This document shows positions 1,742-35,854 of a DNA stretch of 47,743 nucleotides, piece by piece (positions within the stretch are counted from its first letter, which is position 1; every line of letters starts with the position of its first letter). The notes below the pieces were generated by a model. It saw nothing but the letters and a program-made list of their open reading frames with translations, did no database searches and was not told the DNA's origin. Origin of the DNA: a virus; IMG/VR virus record IMGVR_UViG_3300028025_001415, positions 1 through 47,743 of that record; one strand, 5' to 3'. The translations under genes were made by a program, and so were the position numbers.

Positions 1742-1749
1742 TATTTATA
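1742..1749 (-). promoter_or_regulatory. Late promoter of gene 18 (TATAAATA)
   Basis: Perfect T4-type late promoter octamer on the minus strand, 48 bp before the gp18 start and overlapping the gp17 stop codon. T4 late promoters (TATAAATA) and T4-like cyanophage late promoters (NATAAATA) are read by gp55 with gp33 and the clamp. The position in a short gap in front of a highly expressed structural gene supports the call. Confidence 0.75.
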
Positions 1750-3373
1750 AAAAATCAGATTTGTGATAATTCTCTACCTGCCAGACCTGTCCACTTACAT
1801 CGACTAATTGATTTTCTTCTTCGCCATTATTTATGAAGCCAAAAGGTGTGATTTCCTCTTCAATCATTTTGATTCTAGCTTCGTACAATTCTTTTCTAAT
1901 ATTAATGTTTGTCAACTCCTTAAAATATGAGTTTGTTGTTAACCACGAAAATAGCACTAAAGGCATAACTAAGTCATCGTGATATCCTTCGTCAGCAGAA
2001 TAACTATTCTTTCTTTCAATGAATGTTGAAATTTCTGCTATAGTATCCGCATCTGTAATGATAAGTTTTTTCTCTTCAACCATTGACTTGAAGTTAGAAC
2101 AACCAATGCGTTTGACTTTCTTGTCTGTAATAACACCTAGTTGTGTCTTACCCCCACCAAATCCACCATTGACAACTTGTCCTTGGGGTGTTCTGCTAAC
2201 AGAGATAATATTTTCATACTCATACTCACCATAAAGAATCTCTGCGACTTGTTCTGAAGAGTTGATTTCAATTAGAACGTATGCCTCATTGTATTCTTTA
2301 CCCACTCTGTAAAGTACTGATGGATATAAAAGTGGACTGATTTGATTGTTTCTGTATTTACCAACAATCTTGTATGGCATCTGACTTATATCGATAATCT
2401 GAAACGCAGAGTAATCGCCACCTACACCTTTAGCGGTGTCTGCAACTATGCAATATGCGTGATCCTTCTCGACCTTTTCATAAATGTCAAGTCCATCTTT
2501 CTGATACATGATAGGTTTAGCGGACATTTGTGCAATAGAATCAGAAGCAATTAGCGTAAGACTAGAACCCAAGAAGTTACATAAAACCTCTTGATTAAAC
2601 TTTAACTCACCTAGTAGTTTGCGCTGTGTGTCTGCCCACTTCTCATCACGTCCAGGAATCTCCCAGTATGGAATGAATAGATTGACGAACCCGTTTCTAT
2701 CGTTCTCTGCATCATTCCAGAACTTCCAGAAGTGGTTGTATCCTAGTGGGGTAGAACTTAACAGAATCTTTGTTGTTTCACCAGCAGAAATCGTAGGATA
2801 AACTGAGGTGAAGAATTGTTCTGCTACATTGTTCGGTATGATAGCGGCTTCGTCAACGTACAATAAGTTAACTGACTTACCACGAATACCTGATGCGCTT
2901 GTTGCGGCTGTGAATACGATTGATCCATTCTCTAAAGCAATGTCACCCTTGTTCCATGTAGTGACACCTTGTTGAAGCCATGTAGGAAGATTTTCATACA
3001 TGATTTGATAACGATATAAAACTTCTCTAGCGGCAGATGCTTTATTCGCTAGAATTGCTACAGTCTTGCTTCCTTGAAACAATGTGTACCAAAGAATATA
3101 TGCCGCAGATGTTGTTGTCTTACCTTGCTGTCGCCCTTCCATAAGAATAACTTTACGATTCTCATGGATAATCTTTACTTTGTTCTTCTGGCAGTCATAA
3201 AGTTTGAATGCCTGAAGCCCGTGGTCTAGCGTGACAATCTTACAATAATTCTCAATGAAATATATCGGATCGTCAGCACATTTGACATACTCTTCAATTT
3301 CTTCTTTTGTAAAATTGAGTGGTACGCCAGATGCTTTTAGATTAGAATTTCCTAAGTAGGATTTCGCTGTCAT
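1745..3373 (-). CDS. 17: Terminase large subunit gp17
   Basis: ATP-driven DNA packaging motor and headful nuclease, acting at the prohead portal. The ATPase has the deviant Walker A GRQQGKTT at residues 80-87, the form seen in T4 gp17, and a Walker B LLYVDEAA at 170-177 (D174, E175). SSTPLGYN at about 206-213 fits the coupling motif. The RNase H-like nuclease carries acidic residues at D312 (IVADTAKG), D320 (GGDYSA) and D466-D467 (GYHDDLVM). At 542 residues it is slightly shorter than T4 gp17 (610). The start overlaps the gp16 stop by four bases (ATGA), suggesting translational coupling. No intein or frameshift is seen. Confidence 0.96.
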   Translation of the reverse strand: MTAKSYLGNSNLKASGVPLNFTKEEIEEYVKCADDPIYFIENYCKIVTLDHGLQAFKLYDCQKNKVKIIHENRKVILMEGRQQGKTTTSAAYILWYTLFQGSKTVAILANKASAAREVLYRYQIMYENLPTWLQQGVTTWNKGDIALENGSIVFTAATSASGIRGKSVNLLYVDEAAIIPNNVAEQFFTSVYPTISAGETTKILLSSTPLGYNHFWKFWNDAENDRNGFVNLFIPYWEIPGRDEKWADTQRKLLGELKFNQEVLCNFLGSSLTLIASDSIAQMSAKPIMYQKDGLDIYEKVEKDHAYCIVADTAKGVGGDYSAFQIIDISQMPYKIVGKYRNNQISPLLYPSVLYRVGKEYNEAYVLIEINSSEQVAEILYGEYEYENIISVSRTPQGQVVNGGFGGGKTQLGVITDKKVKRIGCSNFKSMVEEKKLIITDADTIAEISTFIERKNSYSADEGYHDDLVMPLVLFSWLTTNSYFKELTNINIRKELYEARIKMIEEEITPFGFINNGEEENQLVDVSGQVWQVENYHKSDFL

Positions 3374-23955: not shown

Positions 23956-24189
23956 TTATCCCACATGTTTAAAGTATTGAATCTGTCTTTCTTGGTCTGC
24001 AACCCATTCATCTGATGGCTTACCTTCACCTTTGTAGTATCGCAATGGCTTACCTGTCTTCTTAGAGACTAACGCCCACTTGCCGTCTACTTGTTTAAGT
24101 GTCTCAATTAATTCTGGACCAAAAACTTCTTCTTCCCACTCTTCTTGCGAAAGTGTGGTGCCTTGTATAAACTGTTTGAATTTTTTCAT
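23956..24189 (-). CDS. Small conserved phage protein, unknown function
   Basis: A 77-residue charged protein with an acidic N-terminal half (EEWEEEVFGPELIETL) and a block WALVSKKTGKPLRYYKGEGKPSDEWV. The pattern W.LVSK.TGK.L.Y is familiar from short proteins of T4-like phages, but I cannot attach a function. The start overlaps the P-loop protein stop by four bases and the stop abuts the gp5 start, so it is coupled within the hub operon and could be an assembly factor or hub component. Confidence 0.7.
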   Translation of the reverse strand: MKKFKQFIQGTTLSQEEWEEEVFGPELIETLKQVDGKWALVSKKTGKPLRYYKGEGKPSDEWVADQERQIQYFKHVG

Positions 24190-25136
24190 AACTTGTCTAA
24201 CTCTGATGTGTCTACTGCGCCTGGAGGAACATTATCTCTAATCCAAGTCAGTAATTGTTTTTTCACATCAAGTTCTTTCTTAGCAGGTTTTCCTGGTTCT
24301 TTGAGTGTCAAATACTTAAAGTCTTTAATGACAGGATTACCTTTCTTGTCTTTGTATGCTTTATTTGTTTTTGGGTCGACAATGAAAATTGTATTCTCTG
24401 GATTATTTAGAATGACATAAACACCGCCTTGAACAGTTGGTGGCATAGCTGTTGTCACTAAATTATATACAGTCTGTGCCGCACCAGCATGAGTAGCAAG
24501 TAGAATATCTTCTGGCACAACTCTTGCTCTTGATTTATTGTTTTTTATTGCAATCTGATAATTAGTCAGAACCCAAGATACGTGAATGTTCTTCGGTTCA
24601 TATCCAGCTTCAAATAGTTTTGGCAGAACATCTGTCATGTCTTCAACTTCTTTGAATGTGCTGTCGAAAATAAGATTCGGCAATTGCCCTTTTTCAGCGC
24701 CAGCAAGCATCAAATCTAATGTCTTGTTTTTTACGTCAGTTGCACGAACTAGAACGTGTAAGATGTAAACATGAGTTGGAGTTTTCAAGTCCAATTGATT
24801 CATTCTCAACTTCTTATCAATTAATTCTTTTTTGATAAGGTCTTTGTCTCTCTCAGAAATTTTGTCTCCATACTTGTCAAGTAAGTCCTGAGTCGTGAAT
24901 TTGCCAAGTGCATCTAACTTTTGAAACGCAATCTTTAATTCATCAACGTCACGTATTTTAAATTCAGACCCTTGCATGAAGTGCTGAACAGCAAAGCCTT
25001 TACCCGAACCTGCACCACCAGCAAGGAACACAATCTGCCCATACTTTGCGCCATTGTTGTAAAGTATTTGTTTCTCTACAAGTTGAGTTGCTTTGTAGTC
25101 TTTTAAATCTACATACTCTGAAAATTTGAGTTTCAT
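24186..25136 (-). CDS. P-loop kinase-like protein in hub operon
   Basis: A 316-residue protein with a Walker A motif GGAGSGKG at residues 40-47 (K46) and an aspartate motif LIFDSTFK about residue 160, like zeta-toxin and related small-molecule kinases. The N-terminus MKLKFSEYVDLKD is shared with other short proteins in such phages. The start at 25136 gives an ATGA overlap with the gp27 stop; an upstream codon at 25157 would overlap more. Location between gp27 and gp5 corresponds to gp28 in some T4-like orders, but no similarity to gp28 is visible. Substrate unknown. Confidence 0.72.
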   Translation of the reverse strand: MKLKFSEYVDLKDYKATQLVEKQILYNNGAKYGQIVFLAGGAGSGKGFAVQHFMQGSEFKIRDVDELKIAFQKLDALGKFTTQDLLDKYGDKISERDKDLIKKELIDKKLRMNQLDLKTPTHVYILHVLVRATDVKNKTLDLMLAGAEKGQLPNLIFDSTFKEVEDMTDVLPKLFEAGYEPKNIHVSWVLTNYQIAIKNNKSRARVVPEDILLATHAGAAQTVYNLVTTAMPPTVQGGVYVILNNPENTIFIVDPKTNKAYKDKKGNPVIKDFKYLTLKEPGKPAKKELDVKKQLLTWIRDNVPPGAVDTSELDKL

Positions 25137-26635
25137 GGTACTAAACCTTTTCTCCAATATCTATTCACTATTGTTGTTGAATCTGTGTTGTCTTGATAAC
25201 GTCTATTTGGCAATGCCGCTTCTATAGTTGGTGTGCCAACTCCAGTATTGAAGTCATATGGAATAGTTGCTCTGCCTAGTTCTAATGATTTCGAGTATGT
25301 GCCCATTCTGATTCTATGATGAACAGACATAACAAAATATCTACCCGAATGAATTCTGTCGTTAGGTATACTTGGGTTTGTTGGGTCTGCTAATTTCTCG
25401 AAAGCACTAGGAACGATGAAGTTGACGATATGTCCAACACCAATGTTATTTTTGCCACCCTCAATCTCTACGCCAATCTGAAATAAGTTCTTAGTCAAGT
25501 GTCCGTAAATGTTATTTGTTAGCCACTCATCTCTGTTCACAGAATCATTTAGTGAAGATGCAATTAACTTTCTTCCTGGAGTTTGTCCTGCAATATCGTC
25601 AAATCTTGAAAATATGTTTGAATTGTCAATCGTTTTAAATGAATAAAAATCAGTCGATTCATTCTGCCCATTTGCGTATGACAACTTTCGCATTGCGTGA
25701 GTTCTTGATATTGGGTCAATCGATGTGACTGTTGTATTATACAAACCTAATAGCATTGCATTCAAATGATTAAAGTTTTCTCTTCTTTCAAATTTTAAAG
25801 TTCTTAGAGTTGCATCTTCTTTATTCGCTACAGTTTTTTGTGCAAATTTAATATCATGCACACCATATTGTGCCGCATCTCTAATTAGCTTATTCAGACT
25901 GCCAAAATAGTATGATGAAGTAAATGGTTCATCTGTTCTAGTGTTAGTCGCAAATACTGGATTGAATCTTTCAAAGAACACATAGAAGTCACCTTTTGCA
26001 CATGCACGATGTGTCATTGCTTCAATCGCTTTATGTGGCATAAGTCCAGTAGAGATGAATGGTTTCTCTAATGTAATTTTAGGGTCTTCTAAAACCAAAT
26101 CATTTGCTCCACCCATTTCAGAGAACATAGATGTTACTGCGTCTCCAATCGACATGTTCTTATAACTTTTAAACAAACACTTTTTAGTAGAATTAATATA
26201 AGTTCTTGATGTAAATTGTAATTGATATGCGCTATGCAAAGTTGTTTGTTCTACTGAACTTTCACTAATCTTATGTACAACTAAATCTTGTCGCCAAATA
26301 ATAACTTCACCATTTCCAGGCTTTGCAATTTTCAATCCGATTAGTTCTCCACCACGTAGTGCAAATTTTTCTAAACCACCACCAGAATCGTCAATCGTAA
26401 TTACGCCCTCAATAGATGCGGAGAACATGTCTTCAATAATTTCAAGGTCTCTAAACACACCCATCAAGTCTACCTTCTCACCATATTGTGTGAGTAAATA
26501 AACTTCTTTAACGTCAACGTCTGAACCAAAGCCAGGAACAATTGATGGGTCTTGCGATACTTTTATATCCGAATTCTGCCCAATGTCAGGCGAAAACTTA
26601 GTAAACGCTGAAAAATTATTATTAGTAGTAGCCAT
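25133..26635 (-). CDS. 27: Baseplate hub protein gp27
   Basis: Trimeric hub protein that binds gp5 and adapts its threefold symmetry to the sixfold tube. The N-terminal region VYLLTQYGEKVDLMGVFRDLEIIEDMFSASIEGVITIDDSGGGLEKFALRGGELIGL is typical of T4-type gp27 tube domains. At 500 residues it is longer than T4 gp27 (391). It shares one base with the gp53 stop and is followed by the kinase-like gene and gp5, consistent with a hub operon. Confidence 0.88.
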   Translation of the reverse strand: MATTNNNFSAFTKFSPDIGQNSDIKVSQDPSIVPGFGSDVDVKEVYLLTQYGEKVDLMGVFRDLEIIEDMFSASIEGVITIDDSGGGLEKFALRGGELIGLKIAKPGNGEVIIWRQDLVVHKISESSVEQTTLHSAYQLQFTSRTYINSTKKCLFKSYKNMSIGDAVTSMFSEMGGANDLVLEDPKITLEKPFISTGLMPHKAIEAMTHRACAKGDFYVFFERFNPVFATNTRTDEPFTSSYYFGSLNKLIRDAAQYGVHDIKFAQKTVANKEDATLRTLKFERRENFNHLNAMLLGLYNTTVTSIDPISRTHAMRKLSYANGQNESTDFYSFKTIDNSNIFSRFDDIAGQTPGRKLIASSLNDSVNRDEWLTNNIYGHLTKNLFQIGVEIEGGKNNIGVGHIVNFIVPSAFEKLADPTNPSIPNDRIHSGRYFVMSVHHRIRMGTYSKSLELGRATIPYDFNTGVGTPTIEAALPNRRYQDNTDSTTIVNRYWRKGLVP

Positions 26636-29310: not shown

Positions 29311-29943
29311 ATGGCAACAGATTTAGGAACAGTTACTGTGACAGCATCAAGAGAAAATCCTTTTAGTATATCCAACTTCAAGACTGCTATTGGTAAACCA
29401 GTTCGCCCTAACCTATTTCGTGCAATATTGCGTGGGTGGGATTCCAATGAAGTTCTAACCGCAACGATGGATCAATATGGAGTTTCAGATATTGACGATT
29501 TTGTTTTTAGATGTGAGAAGGCTGAGTTGCCTGGTCGCTCTATTGCTACGTCAGATGATACTGGAGGTGGTGGTCCCGCATTAAAACTTCCATATGATGT
29601 AACATATAGTGACCTTCAAATTTCTGTCATTTGTTCTGCCGACATGAAAGAGCGTGTGTTCTTTGAGTCTTGGATTGATTCTATTGTTGGTCCAGCTGGA
29701 GATGCAGATGGTGCATCGAATGGTGGCTTAGTTTCTTACTTTCAAGATTACGCCAGAAATGTTACATTAGAAGTTCAGCAACTAGATGAAGCAGGCAACG
29801 TTCTTATTTCATATCAATTGAACGATGTTTATCCTACAGTAATATCACCCATGAATGCGACATGGGAAGAAGTAAATTCTTATCAACGTTTTGGCGTCAC
29901 ATTGTTTTATCGCTATCACAAATTTAAACTCGAAAAATTTTAA
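29311..29943 (+). CDS. Tail tube-like protein (gp19/gp54 family)
   Basis: A 210-residue protein with the tail tube fold pattern: RPNLFRAIL, FVFRCEKAELPG, LPYDVTYSDLQISVICSADMKERVFFESWIDSIVGP, VSYFQDYARNVTLEVQQLDEAG and VISPMNATWEEVNSYQRFGVTLFYRYH. These match the T4 gp19 order (RPNLF, FxCxAxxLP, V.VMND...FVDWQ, Y.....YARDA.T..IEI.G.WP). The main tube gene gp19 is expected next to gp18 outside the window, so this copy is more likely the tube initiator gp54 or a baseplate-proximal tube protein. It precedes gp26. Confidence 0.75.
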   Translation: MATDLGTVTVTASRENPFSISNFKTAIGKPVRPNLFRAILRGWDSNEVLTATMDQYGVSDIDDFVFRCEKAELPGRSIATSDDTGGGGPALKLPYDVTYSDLQISVICSADMKERVFFESWIDSIVGPAGDADGASNGGLVSYFQDYARNVTLEVQQLDEAGNVLISYQLNDVYPTVISPMNATWEEVNSYQRFGVTLFYRYHKFKLEKF

Positions 29944-29967: not shown

Positions 29968-30705
29968 ATGGCTTTGCCTAAAATTAACACACCTATCTTT
30001 GAATTGACTTTATCATCATCTGGTCAAGCAGTACAATATCGTCCTTTCTTAATGAAAGAACAAAAGATTCTTTTACTCGCTTTAGAGAGTGGAGAACCTA
30101 AATCGATTATGACAGCGGTAAAGCAGATTATCAATAACTGCGCTATCACTAAAATTGATGTAGAAAAATTGCCGACATTTGATTTGGAATATTTCTTCAT
30201 GCGTTTGCGTGGTAAATCTATTGGTGAAACAGTAGACTTACAGATGCGTCATCCCACAGGATTAAACTCTAAAGAAGAAGAGTGTCAGCACGTAACTAAG
30301 TTTCCATTTAACATCATGGAAGTTGAAGTTGAGAAAACTATTAGTCATACAGACAAGATTACAATTGACGAAACCACTGGCTTGGGTATTAAGTTAAAGT
30401 ATCCGACAGCAGACTTTACTGAAATGGATACTAACGATTTGAGTCAATTAGATGTTGCAGTTAAGATGTTAATTGCATGTATTGATTACATTTACGATAA
30501 AGATGAAGTATACAAGAAAGAAGATTCTACAGCAAAAGAATTAGAAGAATTTGTAGATAGTCTCTCACAAGAACAGTTTAAATCTGTAATGAACTTCTTT
30601 GAAACAATGCCTAAATTAAAGCACACCATTAAATGGAGATGTACTGGTTGCGGTTGTGATGATGAAGTTACATTGGAGGGTATGGGAAATTTTTTCGCAT
30701 TGTGA
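29968..30705 (+). CDS. 26: Baseplate hub subunit gp26-like
   Basis: T4 baseplate family protein (gp26 type) needed for hub assembly. The N-terminus PKINTPIFELTLSSSGQAVQYRPFLMKEQKILLLALESGE and the ending WRCTGCGCDDEVTLEGMGNFFAL, with a CxxCGC zinc-ribbon-like segment, are characteristic. Length 245 (T4 208). A strong GGAGG precedes the ATG by 7 bases. The final codons GGA AAT TTT TTC form two overlapping -1 slippery heptamers in the correct phase, and the -1 frame runs into gp51; see separate entry. This arrangement resembles tail assembly chaperone pairs that precede tape measure genes. Confidence 0.86.
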   Translation: MALPKINTPIFELTLSSSGQAVQYRPFLMKEQKILLLALESGEPKSIMTAVKQIINNCAITKIDVEKLPTFDLEYFFMRLRGKSIGETVDLQMRHPTGLNSKEEECQHVTKFPFNIMEVEVEKTISHTDKITIDETTGLGIKLKYPTADFTEMDTNDLSQLDVAVKMLIACIDYIYDKDEVYKKEDSTAKELEEFVDSLSQEQFKSVMNFFETMPKLKHTIKWRCTGCGCDDEVTLEGMGNFFAL

Positions 30706-30733
30706 TGGGGCATGATAGTTTAGCAAACTATTA
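30666..30733 (+). promoter_or_regulatory. Candidate -1 programmed frameshift site, gp26 to gp51
   Basis: Slippery heptamers A_AAT_TTT (30687-30693) and T_TTT_TTC (30690-30696) lie in the gp26 reading frame, four codons before its stop. GGAGGG (30675-30680) lies upstream like the stimulator in dnaX. The -1 frame is open from 30666 and is the gp51 frame, giving a predicted fusion of 309 residues. Downstream TGATAGTTT (30713-30721) pairs with AAACTATTA (30725-30733) around a 3-base loop, with one G-T pair; the 21-base spacing is longer than usual. Confidence 0.55.
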
Positions 30734-30896
30734 TAAGACCAATTTTGCTTTGATGCAACATCATAAATACAATTTGAGTGATTTGGAAGACATGATTCCT
30801 TTTGAGCGTGATATTTACATAATGTTATTAAGTCAACATATCGAAGAAGAAAATGACAGAATACAACAACAAAATCAAGCGCAAAGAAGGGGTTAA
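30705..30896 (+). CDS. 51: Baseplate hub assembly protein gp51-like
   Basis: A 63-residue helical protein: LANYYKTNFALMQHHKYNLSDLEDMIPFERDIYIMLLSQHIEEENDRIQQQ. The LEDMIPFERDIY..ML..HIEEEN pattern is that of gp51-like proteins and of small tail assembly proteins after gp26, matching the T4 order 26-51. The ATG at 30705 overlaps the gp26 stop (TGATG); a GTG at 30702 is in frame just before. No well-placed Shine-Dalgarno site is seen, so expression probably depends on coupling or on -1 frameshifting from gp26. Confidence 0.72.
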   Translation: MGHDSLANYYKTNFALMQHHKYNLSDLEDMIPFERDIYIMLLSQHIEEENDRIQQQNQAQRRG

Positions 30897-31429: not shown

Positions 31430-34400
31430 ATGGCAACAATAGGCAATTACGGAGCCGCACTAGGAGACACGCTTAAGCAGTCTGCTGGTGGTATAGTTAA
31501 GGGCTTTGGTTATGGACTCAAGGGGGCTGCCCTTTCTGAGATGCCAGGACTTGTTGCCGGCTTTGGTGCATTCTCTGCACTAAGCAAAAAAGCAAATAGT
31601 ATTGGGCAAGCAAAGGCGGCTTTAGCACAGGGGTCTTCAAAGACTCCAACATCATCTTCATCAGTAGGTGGAAATCCATTTGCACAAATGGTTCAACAGT
31701 TAGCACAGATTAATGCTAATACTGCCGCAACCGCTAATGTTGCAAAAGCAACTGCAAAAGCTGAACAATATAAAATGATGTTTGATGAAGAAAAGGCTAG
31801 AGAACAAGCACAACAAAATCAAGCACTCATTGATGCAATTAAGAATTCGGGGATGGGTGGAAGTGTCGCTGGCGCTGAAGGTAAAGCTGGCGCAGGTGGT
31901 GGCCTATTGTCAAGCATACTGGGAAATGCTTTAGGTGGAATGTTAGGCACAGTCGTTATGGGCGCATTGCTAGGACTTAGAAAAAAACTAGCCGCATTCA
32001 TTGCACAGTTAGTATTATCTGCGGCTCTATTATTTGGAGGACCTGGAGGTAAGTTAGGAAAACTTGGAGGTGCCGCTTGGGCTGGCGCAAAGATTGCAGG
32101 TAAAGTAGGCGCACGATTTATACCTTACGTTGGTTGGGCATTGCTAGCCGCAGACGTTGCTGAAGCTGGTGTTGCAATTGCAGGATCCGCAGATAAGTCT
32201 GCAAAACAAAATGCTAACACACCTAACCCTCCTATGCAGTATGATGCAATGGGCAACCCAACGGGCGTTGGTCCAGATGCACCAGAAGATAGAAAAGGTA
32301 ATACAAATTCTCCAACAGCGCAAAGAACGTCTGCAAGTAAAACATCAGGACTTCAATGGAGAGTTCCACTTACAGTTCCATATAGAGTTACTTCTGAGTT
32401 TGGAGAAAAGTCCTCAATAAGAGGAATGAAAGAACACAATGGTATTGACTTAGCGGCACCAGCAGGCAACTTTATTGTAGCCGCTGCCGATGGTATGGTT
32501 GTTGCTAAGAGTCAAAACGAACTTTCAGGTATATACGTTATTGTCGACCACTTGAATGGCATGACAACAACGTATTGTCACTTAGCATTTGCATATGAAA
32601 AAGTAGGACAAAAAGTAAAAATTGGTGAGCCAATCGGTGTGATTGGAAGCACAGGACGTTCTACTGGTGTTCATTTACACTTCATGCTTAAGCGTGGAAA
32701 CACACCAGTCAATCCAAGAACAGTAATTAATTTTGGTGCGTTAAACAAAGAGACTGCACCTTCAGCACCTACTACTGCACCTAGTGGTGCACCTAGTGGT
32801 GACGGCAAGCGAGGTAATTTTGACCCTAGAAGAGCGCAACTTGTTCCTGGCTTTGCGGCACAAGCAAATAAGAAATTAACAGACAATGCAGTAACAGCGT
32901 ATTACAAAGCATTGAAAGAAGGTAAGACTGAAGAAGAAGCAAGAGCAATTGCAAGTAAAGTTGCTGGTGACAATCCTACAGCTAAAGCAACTCTCGAAAA
33001 ACTTTCAGCACGTTCTGCAAGTGTTACACCAGCATTTACCCCATTGATTGAAATGGGTGACGCATCTGTAGCAGAGTCATACGCAACAAAGCGTGATAAC
33101 GAAAATAATAAAAAAGAAGTTGTCAAGCAATTAAAGTCAATTAAAGAAAATACTGGCATTAGTGCAAAAGCAGTTAAAGACAATAGAATCACTATGTCTA
33201 GAGGTAAATTTGCTAGACCTGAAGACATATTAGCTAGAGTAAATAAACAATTCACGGATAGTCTACAGAGACAGTTGACTAGAACTATCTCTGGAACGTT
33301 GATGAAAGCATTGTATCCAGGCGGATATAAAAACGTAAGTCAGCGAACAGCATCTGGACAAATGTATAGAGGCGAACAGCTTAATAAACTGTTAGGTCTA
33401 ACACCAAAACTTACTCAGCTTGGCACATCAATATTCGGTAAGCAGTATGGTCCTGCATTCGGACAAATCTTCAGTAAAGCCGCAACAGGCTATATGGAAG
33501 TTGGCGCTAGGTCTGTAGCACAAGGCATCTTTGGTTCGATGGGAATGAATTCCGACCAAGCAAATATTCTTGGTGGACAGATTTTAGGTAATCTTGCTAA
33601 AGGTACAAAGCAAGGTAAGTTAACTGCACTTGAACAAATTCTTTATGGCGTGAGTGGAGGTACTGTTGCATTAGGACCAGAAACTATATTTGCGAAATAT
33701 GGTTTTGCATCACCACAAGATGGCATTAATTACATGGCGAATGTACTAGGCTCATCAATGATGGGACCTGTTAATAGTGGATTAGGAACTACACCACTCA
33801 ACATGCGTAACATGGACCCACGCATGAGAACGATGGGTGCGTTCGGTGGTTATGATGGACAGTATGGTAACATGCCTACTGGAATGCCTTCAGCAGGAAC
33901 GTTGCAGGCGGCCGCACAAAATAATCCATACATGCAAGTGACTAAAGAAGGCATGGTTGTTATTGCAGATAACGTGCCACAGCTAACAAAAGACACAGCA
34001 GACCAACTCAATGTAGCAAAGCAAGCAGAGAGAGATGCACAACAGAGATTCTTAGATGCTGAAGCTGGTAGTCAAGAAAGAGCCATTGCACAAAAGATGG
34101 TTAGTGAAGCGCAGTATGAACAGCAGATATTGACTAATAGACTTCTCGCATCTAGAGCAACATCTGGTAGTGGAACAAACATATCTATTGGCGGTGGTGG
34201 CGGTGGTGGCGGATTCTTTAGCGGAGGTGGACCTCTTGCTGAAGTCGGTAACATGGCTCTCGACTTAGGTAAGTCTGCTATCACACAAAAAGCTGTTCAG
34301 TCTTTGGGTATTAAAAATCCATACATGGCTATGCTTGCATCATTCGCAATAAACAAAGGCGTATCATACCTTGGTGGTAAAGCATTTGATTTATTCAAAG

Positions 34401-35854
34401 GCACGGAACTAGGGCAAACTGTTACTGGTGCATTTTCTAATATAGGAAATACTGTTGCTAATGCTTGGGGAACATACGCACCAACATGGGCTGGTGGCTA
34501 TGATGCCGCAACAATGGCTGATTTGGAATTAGGTAGAGCCATGACTGCAAACGCAGGCGGAACTGCCGCATCAAGTCCATTAATTCCTGGCTTTGAAACG
34601 TTTGCACCATATTTACCTTACATACCAGCAGTACTTGCGCTTGCAAAAGGTGATGTTGGAGCGGCCGCCGGCTTAGCGGCTGGAGCATATGCGGGAACCG
34701 TAATTGGTAGCGCAGTAAGTGCTGGTGCGCTTGGTGCAGAAATTGGAGCCTTTGGTGGACCAATCGGCATCGTTGCAGGTTTTGTTATTGGATCGTTCTT
34801 AGGTAGTATATTTGGTGGTGGCGGTAGCAGACCTCCAGAACCTAATCCAGCAATCTGGCGTGTTATTCGCACTAGAGGAAACAATGACATTAATGGTATC
34901 GTAGATTTACAGCCGCCAAGAGAAGCAACACCTAAAGGTTGGCCTGAGTTTGCAGACGCTTTAATTAGGGTTGCATTTAATGCAACTAAAGAAGCTGAAG
35001 TTCAAACAAAAGAACAATCACCATTCGACTTTGTTGTATGTTGGATAGATAAAAATAATATTGTTGTTAGTCTTAGAACAGGCGACCCAAATTCTGGCGG
35101 TAATGATTTGAATTTAGGTAAGCCTGGAGAGAAGAGTTTTGATTCTGGCAAAGCGGCTTCACAAATTGTTAAACATGTCTCTGATGCATTCAAAGCCGCA
35201 TATGCCGCTAAAGCAGATGCAGTAGACAAAGCATCTAAAGTATTAAACTCTCTCACATTTGGTAAAGTGTCAACTGCACTAATCAAAGACTTGACTACTG
35301 GTGCAAATAAAATTGACACATCAATAACCAAAGGTGTGTATGGTGGAACTACAGCAGAAGATTTAGTGATAACAACTGGTATGGCTAATAAACCTCAAGC
35401 GGCAACTAGTGGAGACGAATATAGTTCAGGCACACCACCTATGGTGTATAGTATGAAAGAAGGTAAGTATGTTGAGGCGCCATTCAAAGAAGAAACTATA
35501 ACACAAGTTGGTGAAGATGGAGCATATCAAGTTAAACGTAAAGTGTATGACACTAGCGTATTGATGTATGATAAGGATGGAAATCCAATATACGATAAGA
35601 ATAAGAGCGGTGGCATCGACTTAGCCGATATTGTAAAACCAACATTGACAACAACTTCAGGAACTATTACTGGTGGCACAACTGTCGCAACATCTACTAC
35701 AGGAACAGGAACAACAGGTAACGTGAATGTTGTTACTAATGCAGATAACAGTCAGACAAACAATCAATCTGTTAACACATACTACACAAGTCTGTTAAGC
35801 AAATCTAGAAACGCTATTAGAGATGCTAGTGTGAATACTGCATTGCCTGCATAA
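31430..35854 (+). CDS. Tape-measure-like tail protein with M23 peptidase domain
   Basis: A 1474-residue protein following the gp26-gp51 pair, where the tape measure gene is expected. Residues about 308-430 form an M23 (LytM-type) zinc endopeptidase domain: HxxxD at H336/D340 (HNGIDLA) and HxH at H415/H417 (VHLHF), with GIYVIVDHLNG and TTYCHLA between. Hydrophobic alanine- and glycine-rich segments occur at about 155-200, near 225-245, and in the last third (AAGLAAGAYAGTVIGSAVSAGALGAEIGAFGGPIGIVAGFVIGSFLG), as in tape measure proteins. A run of glycines lies near residue 923. The peptidase would cut peptide cross-links in the wall at entry. This likely compensates for gp5 lacking lysozyme. Confidence 0.82.
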   Translation: MATIGNYGAALGDTLKQSAGGIVKGFGYGLKGAALSEMPGLVAGFGAFSALSKKANSIGQAKAALAQGSSKTPTSSSSVGGNPFAQMVQQLAQINANTAATANVAKATAKAEQYKMMFDEEKAREQAQQNQALIDAIKNSGMGGSVAGAEGKAGAGGGLLSSILGNALGGMLGTVVMGALLGLRKKLAAFIAQLVLSAALLFGGPGGKLGKLGGAAWAGAKIAGKVGARFIPYVGWALLAADVAEAGVAIAGSADKSAKQNANTPNPPMQYDAMGNPTGVGPDAPEDRKGNTNSPTAQRTSASKTSGLQWRVPLTVPYRVTSEFGEKSSIRGMKEHNGIDLAAPAGNFIVAAADGMVVAKSQNELSGIYVIVDHLNGMTTTYCHLAFAYEKVGQKVKIGEPIGVIGSTGRSTGVHLHFMLKRGNTPVNPRTVINFGALNKETAPSAPTTAPSGAPSGDGKRGNFDPRRAQLVPGFAAQANKKLTDNAVTAYYKALKEGKTEEEARAIASKVAGDNPTAKATLEKLSARSASVTPAFTPLIEMGDASVAESYATKRDNENNKKEVVKQLKSIKENTGISAKAVKDNRITMSRGKFARPEDILARVNKQFTDSLQRQLTRTISGTLMKALYPGGYKNVSQRTASGQMYRGEQLNKLLGLTPKLTQLGTSIFGKQYGPAFGQIFSKAATGYMEVGARSVAQGIFGSMGMNSDQANILGGQILGNLAKGTKQGKLTALEQILYGVSGGTVALGPETIFAKYGFASPQDGINYMANVLGSSMMGPVNSGLGTTPLNMRNMDPRMRTMGAFGGYDGQYGNMPTGMPSAGTLQAAAQNNPYMQVTKEGMVVIADNVPQLTKDTADQLNVAKQAERDAQQRFLDAEAGSQERAIAQKMVSEAQYEQQILTNRLLASRATSGSGTNISIGGGGGGGGFFSGGGPLAEVGNMALDLGKSAITQKAVQSLGIKNPYMAMLASFAINKGVSYLGGKAFDLFKGTELGQTVTGAFSNIGNTVANAWGTYAPTWAGGYDAATMADLELGRAMTANAGGTAASSPLIPGFETFAPYLPYIPAVLALAKGDVGAAAGLAAGAYAGTVIGSAVSAGALGAEIGAFGGPIGIVAGFVIGSFLGSIFGGGGSRPPEPNPAIWRVIRTRGNNDINGIVDLQPPREATPKGWPEFADALIRVAFNATKEAEVQTKEQSPFDFVVCWIDKNNIVVSLRTGDPNSGGNDLNLGKPGEKSFDSGKAASQIVKHVSDAFKAAYAAKADAVDKASKVLNSLTFGKVSTALIKDLTTGANKIDTSITKGVYGGTTAEDLVITTGMANKPQAATSGDEYSSGTPPMVYSMKEGKYVEAPFKEETITQVGEDGAYQVKRKVYDTSVLMYDKDGNPIYDKNKSGGIDLADIVKPTLTTTSGTITGGTTVATSTTGTGTTGNVNVVTNADNSQTNNQSVNTYYTSLLSKSRNAIRDASVNTALPA

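Follow-up and report, generated by a model that had tools for sequence, protein, structure and literature searches.

The lambda tail assembly chaperone pair G/GT is decoded through the heptamer G_GGA_AAG. Another bacterial -1 frameshift, that of E. coli dnaX, takes place on A_AAA_AAG, with an internal Shine-Dalgarno sequence upstream of the heptamer acting as a stimulator together with a stable downstream hairpin. For T4-like phages, the abstract of Vladimirov, Gautam and Davidson (2022) reportedly describes gp26/gp51 chaperones, a poly-T -1 site and short and long forms. Two later papers likewise credit that work (Virology 566:9-15), as they recount it, with identifying tail assembly chaperones and poly-T frameshifting in T4-like phages (PMC10885494, PMC12846349). 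The PRFect paper adds that in some T4-like phages a short chaperone gene and a second, long fused one take the place of frameshifting (PMC10885494), and the paper on phage Adele cites the 2022 work for poly-T slippery sequences in T4-like TAC-N genes (PMC12846349). Additionally, a cyanophage comparison from 2010 found that cyanophage gp51 is only about 20% as long as gp51 proteins elsewhere, with the first ~200 residues missing (PMC3037559), a shortness that a frameshift fusion would explain.

The window analysed here is a 47,743-nt stretch of DNA (IMG/VR record IMGVR_UViG_3300028025_001415) from a T4-like phage whose large terminase has its nearest counterparts (about 50%) in Methylophilales phage Melnitz and in Synechococcus phages. 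Judging from sequence comparison, gp26 and gp51 are almost certainly one chaperone gene read in two frames, connected by a -1 slip on T_TTT_TTC. The features of the locus are as follows:

29311-29943: tail tube-like gene, upstream of gp26
29968-30705, + strand: gp26, putative short form (TAC-N-like), 245 aa; Pfam T4_baseplate PF12322 (E 5e-61), phrog_150 (E 2e-68)
30666-30896, + strand: open -1 frame; codons 30696-30893 are the gp51 segment (TAC-C-like), stop at 30894-30896
30676-30681, + strand: GGAGGG, internal Shine-Dalgarno-like element, separated from the T heptamer by 8 nt
30684-30690, + strand: G_GGA_AAT, the third overlapping in-phase heptamer
30687-30693, + strand: A_AAT_TTT, overlapping and in phase, present here but not conserved
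30690-30696, + strand: T_TTT_TTC, slippery heptamer in phase with gp26 and conserved in relatives, the putative -1 site
30703-30707, + strand: TGATG, the gp26 stop overlapping an in-frame gp51 ATG (GTG at 30702); possible minor reinitiation start
30712-30734, + strand: local hairpin, 10 bp with a 3-nt loop
30896-31423, + strand: membrane/holin-like gene, 175 aa; PF11351 GTA_holin_3TM (E 2e-6), phrog_3427
31430-35854, + strand: large tape-measure-like protein, 1474 aa; PF01551, M23 peptidase (E 4e-27)

The gene order (tail tube-like gene, gp26/gp51, one membrane gene, 1474-aa gene) is the tube-to-tape-measure location expected of a T4-like chaperone. An earlier note on this DNA had placed gp26/gp51 ahead of the tape-measure gene; the order holds, but the PF11351 membrane/holin-like gene, also present in L012, intervenes. 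The 1474-aa protein matches tape-measure families at the domain level, via the peptidase. Its M23 peptidase domain spans approximately residues 335-429. Elsewhere in the window, a protein with a P-loop motif (GGAGSGKG) is encoded at 24186-25157 on the minus strand, adjoining baseplate genes.

Among the genes of the window, 39 of 12,984 codon pairs hold an in-phase X XXY YYZ heptamer, and three of these are stacked at the end of gp26, more than chance would give. The earlier note had correctly located A_AAT_TTT and T_TTT_TTC in the gp26 phase; G_GGA_AAT is there as well. Its further claims, that the -1 frame open from 30666 is the gp51 frame and that the long form would have 309 residues, also agree with our analysis: the frame stays open up to its stop at 30894-30896, the gp51 segment matches phrog_634 (E 2e-31), and decoding via T_TTT_TTC gives 243 + 66 = 309 residues. 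The segment also matches the C-terminus of phrog_150 (E 1e-8, positions 227-279 of 282), which means that in part of the gp26 family gp51 is continuous with the rest of the protein. An in-phase T_TTT_TTA near the 3′ end of the terminase gene (1745-3373, minus strand) was rejected as a frameshift candidate, as the -1 frame closes immediately.

In the mechanism that we propose, most ribosomes would stop at 30703 and release gp26. A minority, held back by GGAGGG, would slip by -1 on T_TTT_TTC, with both the P-site and A-site Phe tRNAs re-pairing on TTT TTT. The slipped ribosomes would then read the gp51 segment and produce a gp26-gp51 fusion. As in lambda G/GT, by analogy, the two forms may coat and guide the tape-measure protein during tail assembly.

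Relatives of gp26 were gathered by gp26 homology alone, ignoring the junction. The sets comprised 80 close and intermediate contigs, 80 obtained via alignment and more seeded by L085, S-PM2 and nt-1. At 80% nucleotide identity these fell into 93 clusters, or 92 after the removal of an unconvincing homologue (L201). The earlier note had staked its reading on conservation of the slippery site and its phase in relatives, and T TTT TTN was found in phase in 202 of 203 distinct junctions (TTC 178, TTT 21, TTA 3) and in 92/92 clusters, reaching down to 27-32% gp26 identity. In 81 of the 93 clusters the P-site codon and the stop are 9 nt apart. Elsewhere in the gp26 genes of the 92 relatives the motif occupies only 20 of 19,964 codon pairs, compared with 92/92 at the junctions; these clusters share kinship and are not independent trials.

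The heptamer is kept in the distant phages W14, ACP17, Bhz51 and OLIVR5. It is found in annotated phages of Pseudomonas, Acidovorax, Agrobacterium, Stenotrophomonas, Delftia, Sinorhizobium, Vibrio, Aeromonas and cyanobacteria, as well as in Melnitz-2, and the hosts also span Methylophilales and rhizobia.

This breadth bears on the possibility that a sequencing error in the homopolymer created the frame break and that the gene is simply an in-frame fusion. Homopolymers are indeed error-prone in sequencing. However, the same -1 relation recurs in more than 200 distinct contigs and many separately sequenced phage genomes, and the A-site codon varies between TTC, TTT and TTA, so that this explanation, already refuted by breadth, is vanishingly improbable.

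The codon before the heptamer is AGT in 33 clusters, TCT in 23, AAT in 21, GAT in 10 and another in 5 (n = 92; the types also include GCT, GGT and TTT). It ends in T in 92/92 while its amino acid varies (S/N/D/A/G/F). The earlier note's second candidate, A_AAT_TTT, is therefore not conserved, and it was rejected as the operative slip site.

The conserved heptamer and the open -1 frame could still be accompanied by a separate gp51 protein, translated by termination-reinitiation at TGATG (or at GTG 30702) with no fusion made. The TGATG overlap itself, an in-frame ATG near the slip site in 41/92 clusters and database records that annotate two separate CDS all speak for such a route. The earlier note had stated that gp51 lacks a well-placed ribosome site; this is correct insofar as there is no Shine-Dalgarno sequence at the right distance from the ATG, but the claim left out TGATG, which would allow coupled reinitiation.

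In the relatives, though, start codons are often lacking. Between the upstream stop and 15 codons past the slip, the -1 frame contains no ATG, GTG or TTG in 24/92 clusters; 9 further clusters have no start codon near the heptamer, and in 33 of the 41 clusters with an ATG it lacks a Shine-Dalgarno sequence. A start codon is absent at the TGATG offsets in 70/92 clusters, and most relatives have no such overlap. Additionally, the -1-frame segment is conserved from the slip site onward, and in a few clusters a -1-frame stop codon lies immediately 5′ of the heptamer, which means that -1 reading can begin only at the heptamer itself.

The third -1-frame codon encodes Arg in 71/92 clusters, by means of CGG, CGC, CGT, CGA, AGG or AGA, while the overlapping residue in the gp26 frame varies (G/A/V/T/E/S). 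This indicates selection on the -1 codons that lie after the heptamer but ahead of any plausible start. The same holds upstream of the candidate starts in the ATG-bearing clusters, 34/41 of which have the Arg. Taken together, the 24 start-free clusters and the selection on Arg imply that translation must pass through the slip site. Reinitiation without fusion, which would also leave the invariant heptamer and the fused T4 gp51 unexplained, is thus very improbable.

A combination of both routes, in which the frameshifted fusion is accompanied by minor amounts of free gp51 from reinitiation in the window's clade, is unlikely, but distinctly less so. Much of that clade retains the TGATG arrangement. 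On the other hand, the ATG falls at a hydrophobic position (Met/Leu/Phe) and can be explained by the protein alone, and it has no correctly spaced Shine-Dalgarno sequence.

The arrangement also goes with irregularities in annotation. In every annotated record examined that has such an arrangement, gp51 is given as a separate gene, truncated or missed. Its start in Melnitz-2 (L299) is annotated 53 nt too late, and in ACG-2014d (L295) and S-CAM1 (L296) it is not annotated at all, apparently because a start codon does not exist.

As to what might promote slipping, GGAGGG lies just upstream of the heptamer, as the earlier note had seen, and in the relatives an SD-like GAGGG some 8 nt ahead of the slip site is preferred more strongly than codon usage would predict. 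Pairing with the anti-Shine-Dalgarno sequence (16S 3′ end) has a sharp maximum right before the heptamer, where 77% of clusters fall below -4 kcal/mol. Within the conserved Leu-Glu-Gly, the Glu codons GAG and GAA stand at 45:26, whereas at other gp26 positions the ratio is 459:1326 (p 8e-11); Leu codons ending in G are commoner as well (p 0.003). The excess of GAG over codon usage suggests that the SD-like signal reflects more than the protein sequence, with the reservation that the clusters are related. GGAGGG is thus likely to stimulate slipping.

These data also bear on polymerase slippage on the T6 run, by which an extra U in the mRNA would create the fusion. The T6-T7 homopolymer is compatible with this, and an inserted U would likewise lead into the -1 frame. 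However, the run usually consists of six T followed by C, which is short for transcriptional slippage; moreover, the exact X XXY YYZ phase is kept and the SD-like element is selected at the distance typical of a ribosomal stimulator. We therefore give this explanation hardly any credence, and prefer ribosomal frameshifting.

The stem with a 3-base loop that the earlier note had described (7-9 bp) is real as a local fold, with 10 bp at 30712-30734 and a z of -3.1 for a chosen 36-nt segment, but as a conserved stimulator it is not supported. In the relatives, 73.5% of cells were paired compared with 72.6% in shuffles, and there was no covariation signal; since pairing is at shuffle level, the hairpin was rejected as a conserved stimulator for the window's own clade. 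The 50 nt downstream of the heptamer fold slightly better than shuffles (mean z -1.21 over the 92 clusters, against about 0 upstream), which suggests that RNA structure may serve some lineages.

Comparison with T4 offers a view of the long form as a ready-made protein. T4 gp51 (249 aa) matches phrog_150 end to end, with T4_baseplate PF12322 covering residues 1-201 and gp51 families the C-terminus, and phrog_634 matches both this C-terminus and our -1-frame segment. A profile of the segment aligns to T4 gp51 200-245 (E 4e-7, shuffled controls), beginning at the second residue of the slip site, that is, at the same joint. The same is seen in phiAS4. The T4 gp26 gene ends in TTC TTT GAG TTA CTA TAA, without a slippery site. 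It follows that T4-type phages encode the short form and the long form in two genes, while in the window's relatives they are very probably one gene in two frames. This supports the view of T4 genes 26 and 51 as a duplicated substitute for the frameshift, and makes the T4-like pair a clean test case for the phages' need of a fixed short-to-long ratio.

The sole exception among the 203 junctions is Escherichia phage PhaxI (Ackermannviridae). In Kuja (L287), K444 (L288), Kamild (L294), PhaxI (L004) and GR28A (L290), the gp26/-1 junction lies at the same distance from the stop, with CTT TTT, ATT TTC or GCT TTC instead of TTT TTY. Vibrio phage K444 is unclassified in its record; the other four are Ackermannviridae. 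Such codons are possibly a weaker slippery site, on which only the A-site tRNA would fully re-pair.

We tentatively suggest, at somewhat less than even odds, that a slippery junction is common to almost the whole gp26 superfamily, Ackermannviridae and their allies having it in the weaker N_NNT_TTY form. If this is true, among such phages "gene 51" would be a separate gene only in the T4-type lineages where it was split off, and slipping would be stimulated mainly by the internal Shine-Dalgarno sequence, not by RNA structure.

The chaperone role of gp26/gp51 is suggested by where the genes lie, by the short/long design and by the assignment in the literature. None of the solved structures significantly matched the confident AlphaFold model of gp26 (pLDDT 94); in Foldseek the HK97 tail assembly chaperone 2ob9 ranked sixth, below significance (E 2.0, prob 0.21), so that likeness to the HK97 chaperone fold is suggestive only. 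When solved structures were searched by sequence, gp26 had no match, and gp51, which is predicted to be helical, had only helical matches attributable to chance. The idea that gp26/gp51 is the T4-like equivalent of G/GT nevertheless gains support from gene position, from the PHROG and Pfam evidence on T4 gp51 and from the published work as recounted by its citing papers (PMC10885494, PMC12846349).

Across the relatives, our comparison documents the site, its phase, the open -1 frame, selection in that frame and, in many of them, the lack of alternative starts. Slipping in the present phage, its efficiency, the role of the stimulator and the chaperone function are what we infer. For a phage group that ranks among the most abundant in marine and fresh waters, the comparison settles the route to the chaperone pair, which is very probably a frameshift.

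Set beside known systems, the locus resembles E. coli dnaX in its upstream Shine-Dalgarno element, but a conserved hairpin was not found here. The myovirus chaperones of Vandenendeviridae and Andersonviridae, such as phage Adele, likewise have a poly-T -1 site that is conserved, GTTTTT (PMC12846349); the heptamer type differs and the families are separate. With lambda G/GT and other siphophage chaperones the locus shares a short form, a -1 frameshifted long form and the tube-to-tape-measure position; it differs in having T_TTT_TTC and a membrane gene before the tape measure gene, and no sequence homology was shown. Closest are the T4-like gp26/gp51 systems of Vladimirov et al., insofar as these are described in the sources cited: the genes, the poly-T type of -1 site and the short and long forms are the same, with T4 having separate genes, while the present phage is an uncultivated T4-like virus. 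The probable frameshift described here is a further case of this already proposed mechanism; to the account in the citing papers it adds breadth, clusters devoid of start codons, the test on Arg codons and the signal of an internal Shine-Dalgarno sequence.
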